A stretch of DNA of 64,000 nt. Origin: an uncultured Pelagibacteraceae bacterium (GTDB lineage: Bacteria > Pseudomonadota > Alphaproteobacteria > Pelagibacterales > Pelagibacteraceae). The DNA is taken from assembly GCA_902583075.1 (NCBI GenBank), contig CACHUN010000003.1:124001-188000 (forward strand), given 5' to 3'. The notes under the pieces are model-generated. The model was not told the origin of the DNA and did not search any database. It saw only the letters and a program-made list of their open reading frames with translations. The number at the start of each line of letters is the position of its first letter. Positions within the stretch are counted from its first letter, which is position 1. Positions 37,077 to 45,666 of the stretch are shown here, one piece after another. The translations under genes were made by a program, and so were the position numbers.

Positions 37077-38123
37077 GTGACAAAGATAAAAACAAAAAGA
37101 GAAAGAGTAAAATTTGCTTCAGATAACGTTACAGGTGCATGTCCAGAGGTCTTAAATGCACTTCTTAAAGCTAATGATGAAGACAAAACCCCATATGGTA
37201 ATGATGAGCTGTCGAAAAACTTACAAAATAAATTTTCAGAAATATTTGAGAAAGAAGTTATAGTTTTTCCAACAGCATCAGGAACAGCAGCTAATGCTTT
37301 AGCTTTATCAACTATGACTCCTTCTTTTGGAAATATCTATTGCCATAGACTTTCCCATATAAATGTAGATGAATGTGGAGCTCCCGAATTTTATACTGGA
37401 GGTGCAAAGTTAGTAAATCTGGATGGTAATAATGGAAAAATTATAGCAGAGGAGCTAGATAATAATATCTCTGGAAAAGGCGTAGTTCATCATACTCAAC
37501 CTTCGTCAGTAAGTATTACTCAATTATGTGAAACAGGTGTTGCTTACAATTTAGATGAAATAAAAAAAATATCAGAGATTACTCATAAACACGATCTAAA
37601 TATTCATATGGATGGAGCAAGATTTGCAAATGCATTAGTTTCATTAAATTGTACTCCAGCAGAAATGACATGGAAGTCTGGAATTGATGTACTGTCATTT
37701 GGAGCAACTAAAAATGGATGCCTAGCTGCGGAAGCCATTATTTTTTTTAAACCAGAGTTAGTCGGAAATTTAGCTTTTTTAATGAAAAGAGCAGGGCATT
37801 TACTATCAAAGATGCGTTTTGTATCAGCTCAATTAGATGCTTATATCTCAAATGAGGTTTGGTTAAAAAATGCAAAGCATGCAAATGCTATGGGGAAAAA
37901 ATTAAGCCAAGGTTTACTGAAACACAAAAATATTGAATTAGCTTACCCAACAGATGCAAATGAAGTTTTTGTCAAAATACCAAAAAATATAATTGATCAA
38001 TTTAATTTGCATGGTTACAAAATTAACGATGACGAGTGGGAAGATAAAGCTGTTCGATTAGTTGCTGCCTGGAATACTCATCCAGATGATGTAGAGTCGT
38101 TTTTAAATATAATTAAATCCTAA
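37077..38123 (+). CDS. ltaE: Low-specificity threonine aldolase-type PLP enzyme
   Basis: Cleaves threonine to glycine and acetaldehyde, or related beta-hydroxy amino acids. 348 residues of the beta-eliminating lyase fold: P-T-A-S-G-T-A-A-N (66-74), H-M-D-G-A-R-F-A-N-A (177-186) with the pyridine-binding Asp, and the PLP lysine Lys212 in S-F-G-A-T-K-N-G. The start is GTG at 37077, two bases after the amidinotransferase stop. In an organism group reported to depend on outside glycine or serine, this gives a glycine source and pairs naturally with the amidinotransferase. Confidence 0.9.
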   Translation: MTKIKTKRERVKFASDNVTGACPEVLNALLKANDEDKTPYGNDELSKNLQNKFSEIFEKEVIVFPTASGTAANALALSTMTPSFGNIYCHRLSHINVDECGAPEFYTGGAKLVNLDGNNGKIIAEELDNNISGKGVVHHTQPSSVSITQLCETGVAYNLDEIKKISEITHKHDLNIHMDGARFANALVSLNCTPAEMTWKSGIDVLSFGATKNGCLAAEAIIFFKPELVGNLAFLMKRAGHLLSKMRFVSAQLDAYISNEVWLKNAKHANAMGKKLSQGLLKHKNIELAYPTDANEVFVKIPKNIIDQFNLHGYKINDDEWEDKAVRLVAAWNTHPDDVESFLNIIKS

Positions 38124-38124
38124 T

Positions 38125-38352
38125 TTAGCTAGGATTTTCTTTAAGGAAATTTATATAATTTACTATTTCATCAAATTTTTCATCCTCAATATCTTTATAA
38201 CTTGCATTAAATTTACTCTTTACGCAAATTGCGACATGTGCATAAGGATTTCTACCTTTAGGATGATTAGGATGATCTGTAAGTTGTCCTTGTAAATAAT
38301 CGCCAGCTTCCTGAATAATTTTCCAGAGTTTACTTGCGTTTTCTTTATTCAT
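38125..38352 (-). CDS. Conserved-looking protein of 75 residues, function unknown
   Basis: Soluble, mixed-charge product with W-K-I-I-Q-E-A-G-D-Y-L-Q-G-Q-L (about 10-24), D-H-P-N-H-P-K-G-R-N-P-Y-A-H-V (about 26-40) and a C-terminal helix. Not recognised. Its first 20 codons are duplicated almost exactly at 42476-42537, where they form a dead fragment, so this copy marks one end of the accessory island. It converges on ltaE with a one-base gap. Confidence 0.7.
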   Translation of the reverse strand: MNKENASKLWKIIQEAGDYLQGQLTDHPNHPKGRNPYAHVAICVKSKFNASYKDIEDEKFDEIVNYINFLKENPS

Positions 38353-38353
38353 A
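38292..38353. repeat. 62-bp direct repeat, copy 1 (inside the 75-residue gene)
   Basis: Identical at 60 of 62 positions to 42476-42537, same orientation, 4.18 kb apart. It covers the start codon and first 20 codons of the gene at 38125-38352. The pair brackets a hydrolase, an HNH protein, small genes, an interrupted gene and an amidohydrolase, as expected if the segment was inserted at, or duplicated from, the 5' end of this gene. Confidence 0.9.
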
Positions 38354-38436
38354 CGACTTCAAACCTTGATTTATCTCAATCTGGTATAGTCTGCGGTATA
38401 GTATCCTATAAAATCCTATTTATAAAAGTTTTTTCA

Positions 38437-39276
38437 TTAGTTTATATATTCTTTAATTATAGATCCAATTGTTGGCATAGACCTTAATCCGTGACCTCCA
38501 TCAATAATATGTAACTTAACTTGTAGTTTTTTCTTTTTAAGTAAATCATAATAATATTTTGAAACTCCTGGAGCTGTATTTTTATCATCTTTTCCAACAA
38601 TTAATATATTGAGAGATTTTAAATCTATATCTTTATAATTGAAACTTGGTGAGTTTTTTTTTAATTCTTTCAATTGAGATTTGGTTTCCCATTTTTTACC
38701 GTTGCTTAGTTTTTTTCTAATTTCCCAATCACACGGGCAAGAGATCAAAATATTCATATCAACTAATCCTGGTACTTTTCCATGAATAGTACCTCCCTGA
38801 TAAGCTCCTCCAGAATGACCAATTAAAATTAGTTTTTTTGGTTTATAATATTTTTTAAGATTTTGTAATGCAGGTACTAGTATTTGAAAATTTTTCCAAT
38901 CATAATTTACTACTGTACTCTTTATAGCGTTACGAGGTCCTGATGAATATCTATCCTCTTCACTACTGCCTCTTTCTCTAATAAAGTAACCAGGTCTTGC
39001 AAAAAGAAAAATATTGTTATCATCGTTTATTAATTCTTTTGCAAATCTAATTTGACTTTTTTTGGGTATTCCTGGCCTTGGAGAATTAGGACTACCATCA
39101 CCATGAAGAAATACTATTAAGTTTTTTTTACTCTTTTCAATTTTTCCTAAATTTAAAATTGCTATACATTTGTTTTTACCTGCTGATATATATTTTATGA
39201 AATCCTCTTTTTCACAAGCGTTAGAGTTTCCACTCAACAACAAACCAAGAAACACGATCCCTAAGAGTTTTTTCAT
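38437..39276 (-). CDS. Secreted alpha/beta hydrolase
   Basis: 279 residues with a signal peptide (hydrophobic residues 4-16, cleavage near N-A-C at 19-21). Hydrolase features: oxyanion loop F-L-H-G-D-G-S (56-62), nucleophile elbow G-H-S-G-G (153-157, Ser155), an Asp in V-G-K-D-D-K (about 237-242) and the C-terminal His in D-G-G-H-G-L-R (about 263-269). It resembles acyl-ester or peptide hydrolases of the periplasm; substrate unknown. Its 5' flank is a near-copy of the flank of the amidohydrolase gene at 41103-42269, suggesting shared control or recent rearrangement. Confidence 0.8.
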   Translation of the reverse strand: MKKLLGIVFLGLLLSGNSNACEKEDFIKYISAGKNKCIAILNLGKIEKSKKNLIVFLHGDGSPNSPRPGIPKKSQIRFAKELINDDNNIFLFARPGYFIRERGSSEEDRYSSGPRNAIKSTVVNYDWKNFQILVPALQNLKKYYKPKKLILIGHSGGAYQGGTIHGKVPGLVDMNILISCPCDWEIRKKLSNGKKWETKSQLKELKKNSPSFNYKDIDLKSLNILIVGKDDKNTAPGVSKYYYDLLKKKKLQVKLHIIDGGHGLRSMPTIGSIIKEYIN

Positions 39277-39368
39277 AATCCAAGATTACCAAATCATGGA
39301 CCATGAGTCTATTTGCTTGAAAAGCAGCTATTTGATTTATCTCTTTTGTTTCTAGTTAGTTTCTAGTT
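39271..39368. repeat. About 97-bp repeat, copy 1, upstream of the hydrolase
   Basis: Matches 42264-42359 at roughly nine positions in ten, with a two-base indel and a handful of substitutions, same orientation. In both copies the repeat begins at the start codon of a minus-strand secreted-hydrolase gene and extends upstream, so it is a duplicated 5' region. This copy also contains a perfect CATGG-A-CCATG inverted repeat that is damaged in the other. Confidence 0.9.
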
Positions 39369-39383
39369 ATCCTATAAATTTAA

Positions 39384-40292
39384 TTAAACATCTTTACCTA
39401 AGTGTTCTAATCTATCGCATATTTGATCAAAATTATAATTCATTTTTTTTGAGAATACCCTAAGAGTTAATGCTTTTTTATTAGAATTACATTCCCTACA
39501 TATCAAAACCATATTTTGATATGTGCTCAAGCCTCCTTTATTGACTGGATGAATATGATCTGCTTGAGATAAGCTAATTTTTTTTTTCAAATTACAATAA
39601 GGACATTTCCAATTTTGTTTGGATGATATGCTATTTAGCAGATCTCTTCTTACAATTTGAGCCCCATCTCTAGCATTTTTGTCAAATGCTACTATTTTTG
39701 ATCTTTCCTCTCTTCGTTTAGCTCTATTTTTTAGAGTTCCAATGTTTTTATTTAGATTTTCAAGCTCCCAAAATTTGTTATCTAAAGTTTTAAATTTTTT
39801 TTCTAAATTATCTAATTTTTTATAAGTGCTTTGAAATTTCGAGTTATATTTAATTTTTTTTCTATAAATTTTTTCGTATGTTGTGTCATAATCTAATCTT
39901 TGATCTGCTGAACTTGAAGAAATTAATTTTTCAAATAAAAAATAAACTATTCCATAAGGTAAGAAACTAACAAAAAATGCTACAAATAAGCTATTACTTA
40001 TATCTGCATCTGTTGTGTTGTATAAGATTAGCGTTAATGGAATAAAACAAATAAAATAAGAAATAATATGTAATCCATTATCATTTGATTGTTTAGTCCC
40101 AATTTTATTTTCTATATCATTTTTTATTTTTTGCTCTATTTTATAAATTTTATTTTTATAAATATTAATTTCATTTTGAGTTTGATCTATTAAATGCTCC
40201 AATTGATTTATTTGTTTTGGTAAAGATTTTTGAATAAAAAATAATTTATTATATGAATAAGTTTTATATTTATCAGAATAAATTTTAGACAT
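39384..40292 (-). CDS. Membrane-anchored HNH endonuclease domain protein
   Basis: 302 residues from the ATG at 40292 (a TTG two codons earlier is possible). Order of parts: an N-terminal coiled-coil region rich in Q, N, K and I (about 20-65); two membrane helices (about 75-92 and 100-122); a second helical, charged region (about 130-205); and a C-terminal HNH nuclease domain with W-K-C-P-Y-C, A-D-H-I-H-P-V-N-K-G-G and C-R-E-C-N-S-N-K-K, i.e. zinc CxxC pairs and the H-x-H core. A nuclease tied to the membrane suggests DNA uptake or defence against incoming DNA; this is inference. It lies in the accessory island. Confidence 0.8.
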   Translation of the reverse strand: MSKIYSDKYKTYSYNKLFFIQKSLPKQINQLEHLIDQTQNEINIYKNKIYKIEQKIKNDIENKIGTKQSNDNGLHIISYFICFIPLTLILYNTTDADISNSLFVAFFVSFLPYGIVYFLFEKLISSSSADQRLDYDTTYEKIYRKKIKYNSKFQSTYKKLDNLEKKFKTLDNKFWELENLNKNIGTLKNRAKRREERSKIVAFDKNARDGAQIVRRDLLNSISSKQNWKCPYCNLKKKISLSQADHIHPVNKGGLSTYQNMVLICRECNSNKKALTLRVFSKKMNYNFDQICDRLEHLGKDV

Positions 40293-40347
40293 TATCAATA
40301 ATTACTCCATGAATTAGAGGATCAACATTTTTATAAGAGAGTGACAT

Positions 40348-40566
40348 TTAATTTAATTTAACAGCATCTTTTAGATCCCATTCCCATCTTTTAATTGATT
40401 TTTTATTAGGATTTTCTGAAAGTTTTACCTCAATAAAATCTTTTTTAATTCTTACTTTTATTAGTATTGAGATATCTTTAGGAAAATTATCTATTAATTT
40501 AGGTATCTGATTATCAAATTCTTGGAGCGATATTCTTTTATCTAAGTAAGCTAAAAGTTTTTTCAT
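40348..40566 (-). CDS. Hypothetical protein, 72 residues
   Basis: Soluble, basic product with an N-terminal L-A-Y-L-D-K-R-I-S-L-Q-E-F-D helix and a C-terminal E-W-D-L-K-D-A-V-K-L-N. Not recognised. Its ATG overlaps the stop codon of the small membrane gene at 40566-40733 (shared base), so the two are translationally coupled. Found only in the accessory island of this window. Confidence 0.55.
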   Translation of the reverse strand: MKKLLAYLDKRISLQEFDNQIPKLIDNFPKDISILIKVRIKKDFIEVKLSENPNKKSIKRWEWDLKDAVKLN

Positions 40567-40733
40567 TAATTCTTAAATAAATAAATAAAAGTTAAAATTA
40601 TAAGCACTATGATAATCCAAATAGTAAGATTAGTTAATAATTGTTTTAATTTGGAATTAGACTGTAAAAAAGCAGGTAGAACCAACAATAGAACTCCTAT
40701 CATATATACTACAGGTATTAGTTGATCCATCAT
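40566..40733 (-). CDS. Small membrane protein, 55 residues
   Basis: Frame from ATG-ATG at 40728-40733 to TAA at 40566-40568. Two membrane helices are obvious (about residues 5-21 and 34-51) joined by a polar S-N-S-K-L-K-Q loop, with K-N at the end. The layout recalls the membrane anchor found at the N-terminus of some periplasmic aspartyl proteases, but no protease domain follows. The stop overlaps the start of the 72-residue gene. Function unknown; reality supported by coupling and the clean helix pattern. Confidence 0.55.
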   Translation of the reverse strand: MMDQLIPVVYMIGVLLLVLPAFLQSNSKLKQLLTNLTIWIIIVLIILTFIYLFKN

Positions 40734-40751
40734 CTAAGAAGTTTTTTCATA

Positions 40752-41099
40752 TTAATGAAATATTACACAATTCTTATCTGTATAGGATTTTGAATATCCA
40801 GACAAAGCATCTTGGGTTCTATTAATGACATACTTGCCTCCATAATCCATATAAATATCAAAATCAAAATCACTTTGATTATCGCTGAACTCTCCGTAGA
40901 CACTAATTTTGTATTGTCATTGATCTTTTGTTATTTTAAAGGTTATGCCATCATTATTTGGAAAGCTTAATATAATTTCTGTATCTTTAACTTCATACAT
41001 AGCTTTTCCATGTCTGAAATTATCACAAGTCCAAGTTTCAGTATAAGCACTCCCACAAAATAACAAACTAAGAACAAGGATCGATAGAATTTTTTTCAT
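40752..41099 (-). pseudogene. Secreted protein gene interrupted by one in-frame UGA
   Basis: From the ATG at 41099 the frame gives a signal peptide (hydrophobic residues 4-18, ending S-A-Y-T) and a mature part to codon 60, then TGA at 40917-40919, and then continues in the same frame for 54 more sensible codons to TAA at 40752. The after-stop part has normal composition (K-I-S-V-Y-G-E-F, D-I-Y-M-D-Y-G-G-K-Y) and no frameshift is needed. The break fits a TGG-to-TGA (Trp) nonsense mutation in a roughly 115-residue periplasmic protein. Readthrough, or a genuine 60-residue product, are alternatives. Family not recognised. Confidence 0.65.
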
Positions 41100-41102
41100 T
41101 TT

Positions 41103-42269
41103 TTATTGTTTGCCAACAATTAAAGGTTGATTAAGATTAATTTTAAAAAGTTTAGCTGCATTTTTATATGCAATCTTTTCTTGTACATCTGGGCTTAAAG
41201 ATCCAATCATCAAACGAACATGCTTCATATAGTGTTCAACAAAAACATCATGTGCTGGGCTTTTACCTAATTTATGATCAGAACCAAAAAAATATCTATC
41301 GGAATATTTTTCCATCGATTTTGCCCAAACCTCATGTAATTTAAATCTATAATCATTTGGGATATGCAAATCCTCAAAGCCCCAAAGAGAAGACCAATGA
41401 AATGCTATTTTCCAGTCAGTATATGTATTAGGACAATAATCAAAAATTTCTTCAAGGTCTTTTGTTGGCATCATTCCTGTATGAGCTATCACAATTTTTG
41501 CGTTGGGGTATTTTTCACATTTTTTTTTATAAAAATTTTTAAACTCTGTTAATCTATCTATCCCATCTATTTCATGAAAAGGCTCCAGGTGTAAATTAAT
41601 CGGCATACGGTGTTCATTGACAAATTTGAACGCCTTATCAATAATTGGGTTTTTAAGATCTAAATCTAATTGGGGTTGATACCCACCATAAGGGGGATTT
41701 TTTTTCTTTTTATTATAGTGAACCAGTCCAGCTTCTCCCAATCCATAACATTGTCCTTTTTTAAATCTTTTAATAGTTTCTTTAAACTCTTTATTAACTT
41801 CTGAGTTCTTATATTTTTTTTTATTTGCTGCCATTCCAATAAAATTGGAATGACAATTAGTTAAAACATTCTGATGCTCTGCAGCAAAATCATAATAATA
41901 ATTCCAATTATCTTCTGATTTGTAAGTATTTGGAGTTCCCATAATTACAGACATAAAAACATTTGCCTTATTTGTTAACATTGGCAAATCTTCTATAAAA
42001 TACTCAGTACCTATATCTAAAGCTCTTCCGGTGGATTTTCTAGGATGTGCATGACCATCTATTATAGGTCCTAAATAAGGTTTATTTGTATCTCTTACCT
42101 CAAGATTATTAAGTTTATGACTGTCTAAAAGTTTTTTTGCTTCTTCACGACTTTCAGTTTTTCCAAACATAATTCTTTCATAAGCCCAGTGATCAAACTT
42201 ATAATGATCATCAAAACTGTTGGCAAACGTTGGTAAAATTAAAAAAATAAAAAACAAAATTATTTTCAT
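41103..42269 (-). CDS. Secreted amidohydrolase-family (TIM-barrel) protein
   Basis: 388 residues with a signal peptide (I-L-F-F-I-F-L-I-L-P-T-F-A). The metal-dependent amidohydrolase pattern is visible: I-D-G-H-A-H (70-75, the HxH pair), N-L-H-L-E (about 226), A-H-T-G-M-M (about 264-269), and F-F-G-S-D-H-K (about 331-337) with the catalytic Asp. This is close to the amidohydrolase_2 group, whose members hydrolyse or decarboxylate ring or ester substrates. It is three bases upstream of the interrupted gene in transcript order. Its 5' flank duplicates that of the hydrolase at 38437. Confidence 0.8.
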   Translation of the reverse strand: MKIILFFIFLILPTFANSFDDHYKFDHWAYERIMFGKTESREEAKKLLDSHKLNNLEVRDTNKPYLGPIIDGHAHPRKSTGRALDIGTEYFIEDLPMLTNKANVFMSVIMGTPNTYKSEDNWNYYYDFAAEHQNVLTNCHSNFIGMAANKKKYKNSEVNKEFKETIKRFKKGQCYGLGEAGLVHYNKKKKNPPYGGYQPQLDLDLKNPIIDKAFKFVNEHRMPINLHLEPFHEIDGIDRLTEFKNFYKKKCEKYPNAKIVIAHTGMMPTKDLEEIFDYCPNTYTDWKIAFHWSSLWGFEDLHIPNDYRFKLHEVWAKSMEKYSDRYFFGSDHKLGKSPAHDVFVEHYMKHVRLMIGSLSPDVQEKIAYKNAAKLFKINLNQPLIVGKQ

Positions 42270-42359
42270 TATCCAAGATTACCAAATCCTGAACCATGAG
42301 TCTATTTGCTTAAAATAGCTATTTGATTTATCTCTTATGTTTCTAGTTAGTTTCTAGTT
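42264..42359. repeat. About 97-bp repeat, copy 2, upstream of the amidohydrolase
   Basis: Partner of 39271-39368. The shared block starts at the ATG of the minus-strand gene and reaches the doubled CTAGTT motif at its far end. Because both copies precede secreted enzymes, the block probably carries a promoter and 5' untranslated region. Confidence 0.88.
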
Positions 42360-42467
42360 TGTGAGTTAAAATTAATGAGTCTTTAAGCGATTTATTTTAA
42401 GGTAACTTTTTAATAACCACATAAGTAGTGTAGAATAATGCAGCTTAATGCAGGATAGGTTGAACCT

Positions 42468-42536
42468 CTAATCCCGTAAATAATCGCCAGCATCCTGAAT
42501 AATTTTCCAGAGTTTACTTGCGTTTTCTTTATTCAC
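42468..42536 (-). pseudogene. Truncated copy of the 75-residue gene's 5' end
   Basis: Starting at GTG (42534-42536, ATG in the intact gene) the first 20 codons match the gene at 38125-38352 with one substitution (Glu15 to Asp); after Leu20 the match stops abruptly and a TAG follows two codons later. It is a remnant produced by the same event that made the 62-bp direct repeat (42476-42537). Confidence 0.8.
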
Positions 42537-42537
42537 A
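42476..42537. repeat. 62-bp direct repeat, copy 2
   Basis: Same orientation as 38292-38353, with two mismatches. It lies at the distal end of the segment 38354-42475 and upstream of the DUF-like 85-residue gene, consistent with one boundary of an inserted or looped segment. Confidence 0.9.
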
Positions 42538-42585
42538 CCTCAACTTTTCTTGTTTTACATCAAAAAATTCTAGTTTGGGAACTAG

Positions 42586-42843
42586 TTACATTATTTTCTC
42601 AAGTTTCCAAGCTTCATCTTTAGCATTAAACTTTGCGTTCCAATCTTTAGATCTTTGATCTTCAAATAAGGCATAAAATTTTTCTTCATCAGTGACATTT
42701 GCAATAAAAATCATTTTACCTTCACGAATGTGTGCCCATTCAAATGATGACGTGCATTTTGCAAGATCATCTTTAAACATACTGTATAATTCATCTGTAT
42801 CTTTTTTAGTTCCTTCATATGTTGTTGTTCCAACAAAGTTCAT
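42586..42843 (-). CDS. Hypothetical protein, 85 residues
   Basis: I use the ATG at 42841-42843 because A-A-A-G-G-A-A lies just upstream and a good promoter precedes it; the longer frame to 42912 starts with TTG and adds an unlikely leader. The product (F-V-G-T-T-T-Y-E-G start, F-I-A-N-V-T-D-E-E-K-F-Y-A-L-F near 48-62) looks like a small alpha/beta dimeric barrel-type protein, with one Trp-rich segment S-F-E-W-A-H-I-R. No specific function. It lies in the accessory island. Confidence 0.65.
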   Translation of the reverse strand: MNFVGTTTYEGTKKDTDELYSMFKDDLAKCTSSFEWAHIREGKMIFIANVTDEEKFYALFEDQRSKDWNAKFNAKDEAWKLEKIM

Positions 42844-42872
42844 AGTTATTCCTTTCTTTATTAAATTAAAAT

Positions 42873-42900
42873 AATATAGACACAATAAATTCCCAATCAA
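42873..42900 (-). promoter_or_regulatory. Promoter of the 85-residue gene
   Basis: On the minus strand TTGATT (42895-42900), 16 bases, TATATT (42873-42878) gives a reasonable sigma-70 pair about 30 bases before the start codon, with a visible ribosome site between. One of the better promoter matches in the island. Confidence 0.45.
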
Positions 42901-43004
42901 TAAGATTTTCAACTAATTTATCTCAACTTGTTCAAGTTTCGGGACTAGTTTATCTATAAAATCCTACAACACAGAACCACAATCTTTAAAGATTTTTTAA
43001 TTTA

Positions 43005-43889
43005 TTAATCAACTGGTTTGTTCTTATTTATATCTACTTCATCGTAGGATTTACCAAATCTCACTTCATCAAATAGCATTACGGTTGTTGGAATTTTATT
43101 TTCCCATTTATATTTAAAAGGTTTTATTATATTTTTTTGACCACTTGGTTGAGTCATGGTTTTCATTCCCTTTGGTTTATTTTTATTTATTTGAGATAAG
43201 TAATCACCAACTCTAAATTTATAAATACCATATCTCATATTAATTTGTTGTTTGTTACTGCTCCACCCATGGCTTTTGGACTCTTTAATATGTTTATTTT
43301 TTACAAAAGGAATATAATGGGTGCACTCATTAATCTGTTCTCCATTCCACCATAGCTCAAAATATTTTTCACCTTTAATTCTTTCTCTACTATAATTAGT
43401 TTTAACTATAAAATCATTCCAACTACCTTTTTTAAAAGAGAATCCATGGCATCTCTTATAGTGACCTAATCTCACTTGAAAGCCTGAACCCTGTGTAGAA
43501 ACCATCCATAATGGCATATCTACACCTTTCATTTTAGCTTGAAACAAAGACATCTTTGATGCTACGAAATCATATCCAAAATCTTCGGGTATATAGATAC
43601 TCAAAGCATAAAATACTGGTTCTTTAAATTTTTTACTTGAGTAATGAAGTTTTTTTAAATGCCTTTCTGTTCTTTGAGCACCCCATTTACAATCTTGTTT
43701 TTTACATTCACCATGTCTAATTTCAAACTTTTGAGCTGATTTACCAGCACGAACATTCTTATCGACTATTTCAAAATGCTCTTTGATATCCATGTGATGC
43801 CACCTAGTTTTTTTAATTGTAACAGGCTCTGTATAACCTAAATTACATGTAAAAAAGATTAGAACCACAATCCCAAAAATTTTTTTCAT
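43005..43889 (-). CDS. Secreted polysaccharide lyase-like protein
   Basis: 294 residues with a signal peptide (I-F-G-I-V-V-L-I-F-F-T-C-N-L-G-Y). The body matches the heparin-lyase-I-like jelly-roll family (polysaccharide lyase, PF14099 type): F-E-I-R-H-G-E-C (about 55-62), Y-A-L-S-I-Y-I-P-E-D-F (about 94-104), L-F-Q-A-K-M-K (about 114-120), G-S-W-N-D-F-I-V-K-T-N-Y (about 155-166), E-L-W-W-N-G-E (about 179-185) and M-R-Y-G-I-Y-K-F-R (about 219-227). It probably cleaves an acidic glycan outside the cytoplasm. Such an enzyme is unusual for streamlined plankton and supports acquisition of this region. Confidence 0.75.
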   Translation of the reverse strand: MKKIFGIVVLIFFTCNLGYTEPVTIKKTRWHHMDIKEHFEIVDKNVRAGKSAQKFEIRHGECKKQDCKWGAQRTERHLKKLHYSSKKFKEPVFYALSIYIPEDFGYDFVASKMSLFQAKMKGVDMPLWMVSTQGSGFQVRLGHYKRCHGFSFKKGSWNDFIVKTNYSRERIKGEKYFELWWNGEQINECTHYIPFVKNKHIKESKSHGWSSNKQQINMRYGIYKFRVGDYLSQINKNKPKGMKTMTQPSGQKNIIKPFKYKWENKIPTTVMLFDEVRFGKSYDEVDINKNKPVD

Positions 43890-44012
43890 TTAAAATCCAC
43901 CTCGCCAGTTGTTTTTGGATTTGAAGTCTTTCTCTTCTTGTTTGGAGGTAGGTCTAAATAAATAAAAACCCACGACAACAATTACAAATATACCTAAAAT
44001 AATTTCAATCAT
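43890..44012 (-). CDS. Small single-helix membrane protein, 40 residues
   Basis: ATG at 44010-44012, TAA at 43890-43892, the stop directly abutting the lyase ATG at 43887-43889. One strong membrane helix (residues 3-18, I-I-L-G-I-F-V-I-V-V-V-G-F-Y-L-F) is followed by a basic, polar tail ending N-N-W-R-G-G-F. The stop-start junction suggests coupling to the lyase gene. Function unknown. Confidence 0.55.
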   Translation of the reverse strand: MIEIILGIFVIVVVGFYLFRPTSKQEEKDFKSKNNWRGGF

Positions 44013-44018
44013 GTTTAA

Positions 44019-44504
44019 TTAATCTCTAAAATTAATAAATTCAATCGGAAGCCCTATATCTATTGCTTCTATGGCAGCTATTGCTTCTTGAAGATCATCT
44101 CTTTTTTTTCCTTGAGCTCTTAATTCTTCTCCTTGAATTTTAATTTGGATTTTAAGTTTTAGTTTTTTTACATCAGCAATAATCTTCTTAGCATTTTCTT
44201 GGCTTATACCCTCAGCTAATTCACTAACCTGCCTGATAGTTCCACCTGCTGCACTCTCTGAATTTTTAATAATTATTACTCTTGGATCTACTTTTCTTCT
44301 TATGAGGTGAACTTGTAACAATTCATTTACTTGTTTTAATTTTAATTCATCTGGAGCTAGTGTAGTTATTATTTTATCTTTTCTTTCAATTGAAATATTA
44401 AGTCCCTTAAAGTCATATCGGTTAGCAATTTCCCTTAAACAATTAGCAAGAGCATTGTCAAACTCTTGATAATTGATTTTACTTATAACATCAAATGAGG
44501 GCAT
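44019..44504 (-). CDS. yajQ: YajQ-family nucleotide-binding protein
   Basis: 161 residues, full YajQ/UPF0234 length, starting M-P-S-F-D-V-I-S-K and containing N-R-Y-D-F-K-G (about 28-34), two RRM-like ferredoxin folds and the C-terminal F-I-N-F-R. Homologues bind cyclic di-GMP or RNA and act in phage development or virulence regulation in other bacteria. No cyclic di-GMP enzymes are in the window. Core gene; marks the end of the accessory island. Confidence 0.93.
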   Translation of the reverse strand: MPSFDVISKINYQEFDNALANCLREIANRYDFKGLNISIERKDKIITTLAPDELKLKQVNELLQVHLIRRKVDPRVIIIKNSESAAGGTIRQVSELAEGISQENAKKIIADVKKLKLKIQIKIQGEELRAQGKKRDDLQEAIAAIEAIDIGLPIEFINFRD

Positions 44505-44589
44505 ACTTTTTAATATTACTTACATTAATATATTTTTTAATTAGAACAACCTTCATCAAAGCTACTTTATTCACATTTTCTATATTCTT

Positions 44590-45666
44590 TTAATTTTTTG
44601 GTAACCAAGACTTATAGAATGGATTATTTTTATCAATTGGAAGTTTGATATTTATATTTTGTCTTGAAGATTGGTAAACAGCAGTTACAAACTCTAATGA
44701 TTTTCTAGCATCTGACAATGTTACCTCATCACTTGAAGAGCCATCTAGTTTCTTTGCTACTTCATCAAACATTCCTGCGTACCATGATTTAGGTTTTTCG
44801 ACTTTTGACAATACTTCTTCAATTTGATTTTTTGTAATAGGAGCTCTTGGTAAAAATACCCATTCATCGTCAGCTGGATTATAAGGCTTATCTGGAGATG
44901 CTCCCGATTCTACTGTCAGTCCATCAAAACAGAATTTTAGTCTACTGGTATCATTTGCTGCACCAAGGGTGATTGAGCTAGTGACCAATGATCCATCTTC
45001 CATTTCAATTGATAAAGACGCACAGTCTTCGACCTCAATATCATTTACTCTTGTTGTTAATTTTGCAAATACATTTGAAACTGGGCCTAGTATCATACTC
45101 ACCAAGTCATGAATATGTATAGCATGACTTAATATTGCCCCACCTTGTTCACCATCCCAAGTACCTCGCCAAGGTTTTGAATAATAATTTTTTCCTCTAT
45201 TCCAATGAGTCTCCAATGAGGCTATTAAAGGTTTTCCAGCAAGTCCTGACTTTATTAGTGCCTTAAATTTAGAAAATCCTAATCCATACCTATATTGGAA
45301 TACAGGAAAAATTATCTTTCCTGTTTCTTTACTAATATTTTCTAGCTCATCAATCTCTTTAAGACTTGAAACCAAAGGTTTTTCGCAAATTACATGCTTT
45401 CCAGCTTCTAGAGATTTTTTACACGCAGAAAAATGTAAATGGGGTGGGAGACAAATATCAATTATATCTATTTCCTTTACTTTTAATACATCATCAAAGT
45501 TTAATGACATTTTAGTATCGTTATTTGACGCCAATATTTTATCTATTGCATCTCTTGTTAAACCACACAATGTATGAACACTAAATCGGTCCGATACTTT
45601 TTGAAAATCTTCAAAATGTTTAGCTCCTATATTAGTTCCTATTATTGCTATCTGATATTTTTTCAT
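44590..45666 (-). CDS. Gfo/Idh/MocA-family oxidoreductase
   Basis: 358 residues with the Rossmann start I-A-I-I-G-T-N-I-G-A (about 5-14) and the family hallmark H-V-I-C-E-K-P-L (about 92-99) carrying the catalytic Lys, followed by the H-x2-H-x2-D-like I-H-I-H-D-L (about 182-187). Such enzymes oxidise or reduce sugars and cyclitols with NAD(P). It overlaps its upstream neighbour by four bases (ATGA), and the two are homologous partners of one sugar or inositol pathway; substrate unknown. Confidence 0.88.
   Translation of the reverse strand: MKKYQIAIIGTNIGAKHFEDFQKVSDRFSVHTLCGLTRDAIDKILASNNDTKMSLNFDDVLKVKEIDIIDICLPPHLHFSACKKSLEAGKHVICEKPLVSSLKEIDELENISKETGKIIFPVFQYRYGLGFSKFKALIKSGLAGKPLIASLETHWNRGKNYYSKPWRGTWDGEQGGAILSHAIHIHDLVSMILGPVSNVFAKLTTRVNDIEVEDCASLSIEMEDGSLVTSSITLGAANDTSRLKFCFDGLTVESGASPDKPYNPADDEWVFLPRAPITKNQIEEVLSKVEKPKSWYAGMFDEVAKKLDGSSSDEVTLSDARKSLEFVTAVYQSSRQNINIKLPIDKNNPFYKSWLPKN

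Follow-up and report, generated by a model that had tools for sequence, protein, structure and literature searches.

A predicted membrane-anchored HNH nuclease on small, repeat-bounded islets of SAR11 genomes

Introduction

Why would a bacterium of the SAR11 group encode an HNH nuclease that appears to be fastened to its membrane, and how did it come by the gene? The genomes of this group are streamlined and are thought to be poor in mobile elements. The gene lies in a 64,000-nt stretch of an uncultured Pelagibacteraceae genome (assembly GCA_902583075.1, contig CACHUN010000003.1, positions 124,001 to 188,000), which we refer to as the window and within which the features below are numbered; the genome itself (G000 in our set) comprises 1.19 Mb and is 84% complete. 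Neither a membrane-anchored HNH family nor SAR11 mini-islands devoid of an integrase are described in the literature that we searched, as far as the accessible parts of the sources go, PMC13092281 and PMC11389934 included. A study from 2007 distinguished four hypervariable SAR11 regions, of which one carries an integrase gene and another has tRNA genes on its flanks (PMC2217521). The present analysis suggests that the nuclease may be cargo of very small islets that would insert at tRNA genes or at another attachment site.

Results

The gene occupies positions 39384..40292 of the minus strand, with its ATG start codon at 40292 and its stop codon ending at 39384, and it encodes 302 amino acids; its assignment as a membrane-anchored HNH nuclease gene draws upon the open reading frame, the PF01844 match, the relatives and dN/dS. 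From the N- to the C-terminus, the protein presents a long, charged helix, then two membrane-helix peaks and another long helix, and lastly the HNH domain. This is the arrangement that a sequence-only reading of the locus had proposed (coil, two membrane helices, second coil, C-terminal HNH) and it is upheld by the reading frame, the PF01844 match and two hydropathy peaks, with the coils appearing as long helices of an AlphaFold2 model. The predicted membrane helices, called solely from hydropathy, comprise residues 73-91 (40020..40076, minus strand; Kyte-Doolittle 19-residue mean 1.92) and residues 102-120 (39933..39989, minus strand; mean 2.19). The loop between them holds no lysine or arginine and two aspartates. 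Among all four full-length members of the family, using helix limits set by hand, this loop has 0-1 lysine or arginine residues and each 15-residue flank has 1-4, while acidic residues in the same flanks also number 1-4. The charge pattern weakly fits an orientation in which both ends of the protein, i.e. the coils and the nuclease, would face the cytoplasm.

The HNH domain (residues 230-273; 39474..39605, minus strand; PF01844, E = 3.4e-11) scores 43.6 bits against a gathering cut-off of 21.4, which places the protein within the HNH profile family. The protein exceeds the curated cut-offs of both PF01844 and PF14279, and the PF01844 cut-off was likewise passed by each of the three other proteins scanned (L003, L035 and a Thauera protein). 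In an alignment of the window protein, three SAR11 relatives and the Thauera protein, C230, C233, D245, H246, N260, C265, C268 and N269 are invariant across all five sequences; among them are the catalytic histidine, the aspartate and asparagine residues, and the cysteine pairs. The AlphaFold2 model, built from a two-sequence input, consists of helices at residues 14-93, 98-148 and 151-223. Its block pLDDT is 84-94 at residues 11-60 and 141-190, 44-58 at residues 71-130, and 31-49 from residue 221 onward; the model thus backs the long helices at 11-60 and 141-190, whereas neither the membrane stretch nor the fold of the HNH domain is modelled reliably. The HNH assignment is based upon sequence. 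What the protein has in common with the HNH superfamily (PF01844/PF14279) are the core residues and the two cysteine pairs, whereas for residues 1-200, with their two-helix hairpin between two coils, Pfam and NCBIfam yielded nothing above cut-off. The membrane part weakly matched DUF412/YfbV and PspC (E about 0.01); L003 and L035 gave no such matches, and we took them as effects of composition.

Three full-length relatives were found, all SAR11-like: L032, from the uncultured Pelagibacteraceae genome AG-911-N14 (79-80% identity), G008 (35-39%) and G242 (35-38%). Each has two membrane peaks and intact HNH residues, such that the helices are kept in all four full-length members. The family is rare, being detected in 3/399 genus genomes at E 1e-10, with the window's own genome included. 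At the level of the class, 44 of 385 genomes match at 1e-6 (again including the window's own), and no genome other than the window's own has a full-length match; the remaining matches concern the HNH end only, since none of the listed places begins before profile position 193. Weak matches in 147 of 200 genomes are mostly HNH proteins of ~190 amino acids that align from residue 225 on, and in another class member an HNH-like match (4.2e-12) is found within a 1366-aa open frame (L039; G545:C2:176727-176957). A plasmid-encoded protein of Thauera aminoaromatica (pTha01, WP_012592925) shares the C-terminal half (28.5% identity across residues 98-302) and likewise ends in G-K-x-V, but unlike the window protein it is devoid of membrane peaks.

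A phage origin was also considered and set aside, as no full-length relative was found in viral contigs, phages or plasmids. The scans of viral contigs rely upon short peptide patterns and mainly detect close relatives; they confirmed 0/18, 0/163, 0/68 and 0/5 candidates, while one further scan confirmed 3/110, covering only residues 163-286 or 227-274. Coverage of 80% of the query was reached by none of 381 phage records at E 0.01 and by none of 19 plasmid records. Between the window gene and that of L032, dN/dS is 0.20 overall and 0.075 at residues 200-302, which argues that the nuclease part is under selection. The HNH gene is apparently intact and subject to purifying selection, and both the recurrence of the two peaks in four SAR11 members and the low dN/dS between two of them speak against a chance arrangement.

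The sequence-only reading had further pointed to two tiny, coupled membrane genes next door as possible partners. These are a 72-aa ORF (40348..40566, minus strand) and a 55-aa ORF (40566..40733, minus strand), which share one base, the former stopping 55 nt ahead of the HNH start codon. Hydropathy agrees with this description for the 55-aa protein, a predicted two-helix membrane protein, and contradicts it for the 72-aa product, which is not hydrophobic and has no peak at 1.4 or above. By genus search, the 55-aa gene is widespread (132/201 genomes) and unlinked to the HNH family: among the three HNH-family holders it occurs only in G000 and G008, and in G008 the two genes reside on separate contigs. 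The 55-aa protein is unmatched in Pfam and resembles a core small protein of the genus. The 72-aa ORF is essentially an orphan, matching just its own genome and, weakly, G097 (2/201), where the matching sequence contains five stop codons. The neighbors of the other HNH genes differ as well, consisting of 200-, 143- and 108-aa genes in L032, of 55-, 145- and 89-aa genes in G008 with sequences different from those in the window, and of a 69-aa membrane protein in G242. When the 15 proteins encoded in the four islets were compared all-versus-all at E 0.1, the HNH gene was the sole gene in common; the three other matches span 16-33 residues, and none is stronger than E 0.007. Given this distribution, the differing neighbors and the restriction of shared content to the HNH gene, the proposed partnership is not supported. 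Of the two conditions that the sequence-only reading had named as able to overturn it, loss of the helices in homologues does not apply, whereas the expected linkage to neighboring genes fails.

What the four HNH genes do share is their setting. Each is located within an islet of 1.35-2.9 kb bounded by direct repeats of 67-118 nt, the distance between repeats being 1349 nt in G242, 2184 nt in G008, 2453 nt in L032 and 2894 nt in the window. In G242, the 85-nt repeat includes the 5' part of a tRNA-Ser gene; in G008, the 67-nt repeat includes that of a tRNA-Met gene; and in L032, the 118-nt repeat includes that of a tRNA-Leu gene. In all three cases, the right-hand repeat takes in the first 39-63 nt of the intact tRNA gene and a displaced fragment makes up its left-hand counterpart, i.e. 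the organization of a tRNA-integrated island. Chance proximity to tRNA genes was rejected, as the probability that two or more of four genes fall within 125 bp of one is about 0.006, assuming 31 tRNAs and 1.2 Mb.

Empty sites are known for three of the four islets. The G242 site is empty in seven genomes (G063, G005, G000, G054, G044, G004 and G047), each with an 84-nt overlap, and the G008 site in G049, whose flanks are joined with a 67-nt overlap. An exact empty counterpart of the L032 site did not turn up, and pieces of that site recur in several other genomes. When the window site was compared to the searched L032 stretch, the match consisted of the HNH gene plus 20 nt past its stop codon, ending at a tandem pair, and nothing upstream of the gene matched; the two HNH genes are at different chromosomal sites. 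The islet genes gave no integrase match, either in the window or in L032, G242 and G008.

In the window, the islet extends from the HNH gene to an amidohydrolase-like gene (41103..42269, minus strand; PF04909, 2.3e-9) between the two copies of repeat A (left, 39270..39368, plus strand, 99 nt, 92%; right, 42263..42359, plus strand), which were defined by a repeat search and by the flanks of G031. In the latter genome the site is empty: the stretch is missing and its two flanks join within repeat A, overlapping by 74 nt. Inside each copy lies the tandem pair TTCTAGTT with an 11-bp period (39350..39368 and 42341..42359, both plus strand, from a pair search). A second repeat, B, brackets a larger variable region: its left copy (38292..38354, plus strand; 63 nt, 97%) forms the start of a 75-aa ORF, 5' end included, that is itself intact, its right copy (42476..42538, plus strand) is a displaced fragment of that ORF, and the flanks of G054 and G047 join there with a 68-nt overlap. 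Repeat A does not correspond to a tRNA, and the pattern of intact tRNA plus displaced fragment is accordingly missing from the window; the single Rfam match within 38000-44600 (22.5 bits against a gathering score of 74) was taken as chance. Instead of tRNA sequence, repeat A contains 5' sequence from two other genes, so the window islet could have arisen by homologous recombination.

This spot is also occupied by other genes in near relatives, many of which have signal-peptide-like starts as judged by eye, and in some of these genomes the genes are separated by copies of a ~265-nt linker. Such repeated linkers, carrying a fragment of the 75-aa ORF, are present in L101 (G044:C1:800-12000) and L099 (G024:C13:15000-27000); in L101 they separate single genes, and no integrase was noticed among the ORFs listed there. 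The arrays look like the outcome of repeated integration at one site. The amidohydrolase gene (41103-42269) has 99% DNA identity to G010:C6:62684-63870, located at a different chromosomal place, while G010 is otherwise about 75% identical to the window where the two were compared, which points to a recent transfer of this one islet cargo. A little further on, 43005-43889 encodes a 294-aa protein with no Pfam match. In G031 and G054, which lack this gene at the window's spot, position 42964 joins 43889 directly, suggestive of another separate insertion.

The ends of the islets show a second regularity. Inside G242, G008 and L032, at most 220 nt from both ends, there are end-matched tandem 7-mer pairs with an 11-bp period, the 7-mers being AACTAGA, GGTCCAC and CTCGGAC, respectively. 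Shuffles, i.e. first-order Markov resamples rather than exact dinucleotide shuffles, reproduced matched pairs in 0/500 trials for each of the three. A strict matched-pair test was passed by 8 of 13 elements and failed by the window's outer repeat B, G020, G062, G031 and G120, with near-matching pairs evident by eye in G020 and G062; the result for repeat A of the window is not independent, because the TTCTAGTT pair lies within the repeat. Furthermore, a motif scan located an 18-nt end motif, ATAGGATTTTATAGGATA, adjoining a tandem pair at 38402..38419 (minus strand), where a search of the window at up to 2 mismatches gave 1 match against 0.03 expected. This motif adjoins pairs at G242, L032 and window position 38402, and is absent from the G008 HNH islet and from the other tRNA-Met islet ends that were read. 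When up to 1 mismatch is allowed, 15 of 61 genus genomes contain it, and none contains the reversed control. An exact tandem pair is situated just downstream at 16 of 21 motif sites versus 4.6% of random positions, and is missing from the other five; the 21 comprise 20 loci (of 22 places listed) and L036, which is not independent since the motif was read from L036 and L032. Taken at face value, these end features fit a tyrosine-recombinase element in which the pairs would be putative arm-type sites.

Comparable structures carry other cargo. Within the window's own genome there is a 7.4-kb island at a tRNA-Met gene (L117; G000:C1:35500-44500), which has 59-nt identical end repeats, encodes a phage-type integrase (PF00589, 1.9e-19) and shows the pair TGCTCCA at either end; its cargo consists of a PDZ protein and unrecognized genes. 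Five more tRNA-Met islets with repeats were found in G077, G020, G052, G062 and G037, three of which pass the strict pair test, and no integrase was seen among their ORFs, read from the ORF starts. The Pfam searches of tRNA-Met islets covered between one and three genes per genome in G000, G077, G020, G052 and G062. In G053 (L122), there is neither a repeat nor a tRNA within the stretch taken. Islets at tRNA-Met occur on the 5' side as well as on the 3' side of the tRNA (L118, L119, L120, L121 and L125), and the region of the anticodon stem-loop is where the duplicated tRNA-Met parts overlap, which is what a crossover at that place would give. Many of the sister-islet genes have signal-peptide-like starts by eye and two are trypsin-like; of 20 chosen cargo proteins, PADLOC left 18 unmatched at 0.001 and matched two over the trypsin-like domain.

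Discussion

The features of this nuclease and its islets can be compared with several known systems. Among defense genes, the best PADLOC matches are Septu PtuB and the candidate PDC-M01B, mostly via the HNH domain. No ATPase corresponding to Septu PtuA was recognized in the ten window proteins at 38125-43889 or in the relatives' islets, PADLOC left the five further window proteins that it scanned unmatched, and no known defense system or gene was recognized beside the HNH gene or in the four islets. Zorya likewise includes an HNH nuclease, ZorE, as part of a membrane system, and no Zor match (ZorA/ZorB) was obtained in the six window proteins scanned. SLATT effectors combine two helices with a coil, and of the 19 families matched with E values of up to 1 none belongs to this group. 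Regarding the islets, Islander-type islands and tycheposons also have an intact tRNA and a displaced fragment, whereas the HNH islets have no integrase match, and their 5' fragments are the rare kind, as PMC4383910 gives 159 islands in Islander with 5' fragments versus 3760 with 3' fragments. Tycheposons are cargo elements that have a tyrosine recombinase and reside at a tRNA, and their size is given as 4-200 kb (PMC10872708). At 1349-2894 nt and without a recombinase match, the HNH islets fall outside that definition, and for these two reasons we did not file them as tycheposons.

Based upon these features, we consider the window gene to encode a nuclease that is anchored in the inner membrane, faces the cytoplasm, is carried as cargo by repeat-bounded mini-islands lacking an integrase, and cuts invading DNA, a reading that we judge to be about evenly balanced between right and wrong. 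Several steps would follow from it. Firstly, the two-helix hairpin would anchor the nuclease with its coils and HNH domain on the cytoplasmic side, where the coils may provide dimerization or sensing. Secondly, phage or plasmid DNA entering the cell would be encountered by the nuclease at the membrane and cut there. Thirdly, the islands would have integrated at tRNA genes or another attachment site through a recombinase, probably of the tyrosine type, that was supplied in trans or has since been lost, with the tandem pairs possibly serving as its arm-type sites; the islets may still be moving. With no integrase match in any of the HNH islets, their mobility is something that we infer. The resemblance to a defense gene stems from the gene being rare cargo, under selection, on small and probably movable islands, although most of the sister cargo bears no recognizable mark of defense.

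One alternative is that the islets are not mobile at all and that variable spots acquired the repeats by local duplication or homologous recombination. Repeat A, like the linkers in the neighboring arrays, does contain 5' regions of other genes, and 5 of 13 elements fail the strict pair test, both of which would be compatible with such an origin. However, three unrelated tRNA sites exhibit the same combination of an intact tRNA and a displaced 5' fragment, with end-matched pairs like those of the island that has an integrase, and the exact pair recurs downstream of the 18-nt motif far above the random rate. We therefore view immobility of the islets as unlikely.

A different possibility concerns the target of the nuclease rather than its carrier. 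The protein could be a self-acting toxin that is freed upon infection and degrades host DNA, resulting in abortive infection, with its anchor sensing a membrane change. A coil and two helices followed by a C-terminal effector could be read as a sensor-effector plan, and the rarity of the gene agrees with this idea. Against it, no candidate antidote is conserved, as the four islets, with 15 proteins between them, share nothing but the HNH one, and we find this scenario rather unlikely.

HNH domains are common in homing enzymes, and all four HNH genes are situated in repeat-bounded islets, three of them at tRNA genes. The protein might accordingly cut at or near a tRNA attachment site, after which break repair would copy the islet in. 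No intron family was found at 38000-44600 of the window. Five tRNA-Met islets of the same plan reside in genomes with just a short HNH match on another contig, and one further tRNA-Met island has an integrase, both of which speak against a homing-like process. In addition, we know of no case in which homing leaves direct repeats of 67-118 nt. This explanation is distinctly unlikely. A host housekeeping function exerted at the membrane, for instance in chromosome maintenance or in processing DNA that has been imported, would suit the predicted anchor and the strong constraint on the HNH part, but the presence of the gene in so few genomes, at differing places and with empty sites, makes it very unlikely.

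Returning to the preferred reading of a membrane nuclease carried by mini-islands, the shared plan of the islets can be extended into a broader suggestion. SAR11 genomes might harbor a family of mini-islands that lack an integrase and have end pairs of 7-9-mers at an 11-12 bp period, set within the frame ATAGGATTTTATAGGATAAC-pair-GAGATAAA in a subset, by which one to a few genes are moved among tRNA-Ser, -Met and -Leu genes and other hotspots. The pair sequence would be specific to each element and would tend to match at both ends, much like recombinase arm sites, and one of the cargoes would be a new membrane immune nuclease directed against phage DNA. This wider proposal is tentative, and we consider it more apt to fail than to hold.

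The gene content of SAR11 varies despite streamlining. A tiny element without an integrase, but with recognizable ends, would constitute a testable route for the exchange of single genes between SAR11 cells. Its HNH cargo, placed at the membrane, would be a defense acting upon DNA entry, with a layout that, beyond the HNH domain, is unmatched in Pfam and NCBIfam above cut-off. If the mini-island reading is true, such elements would have moved genes in some of the most abundant bacteria of the ocean.
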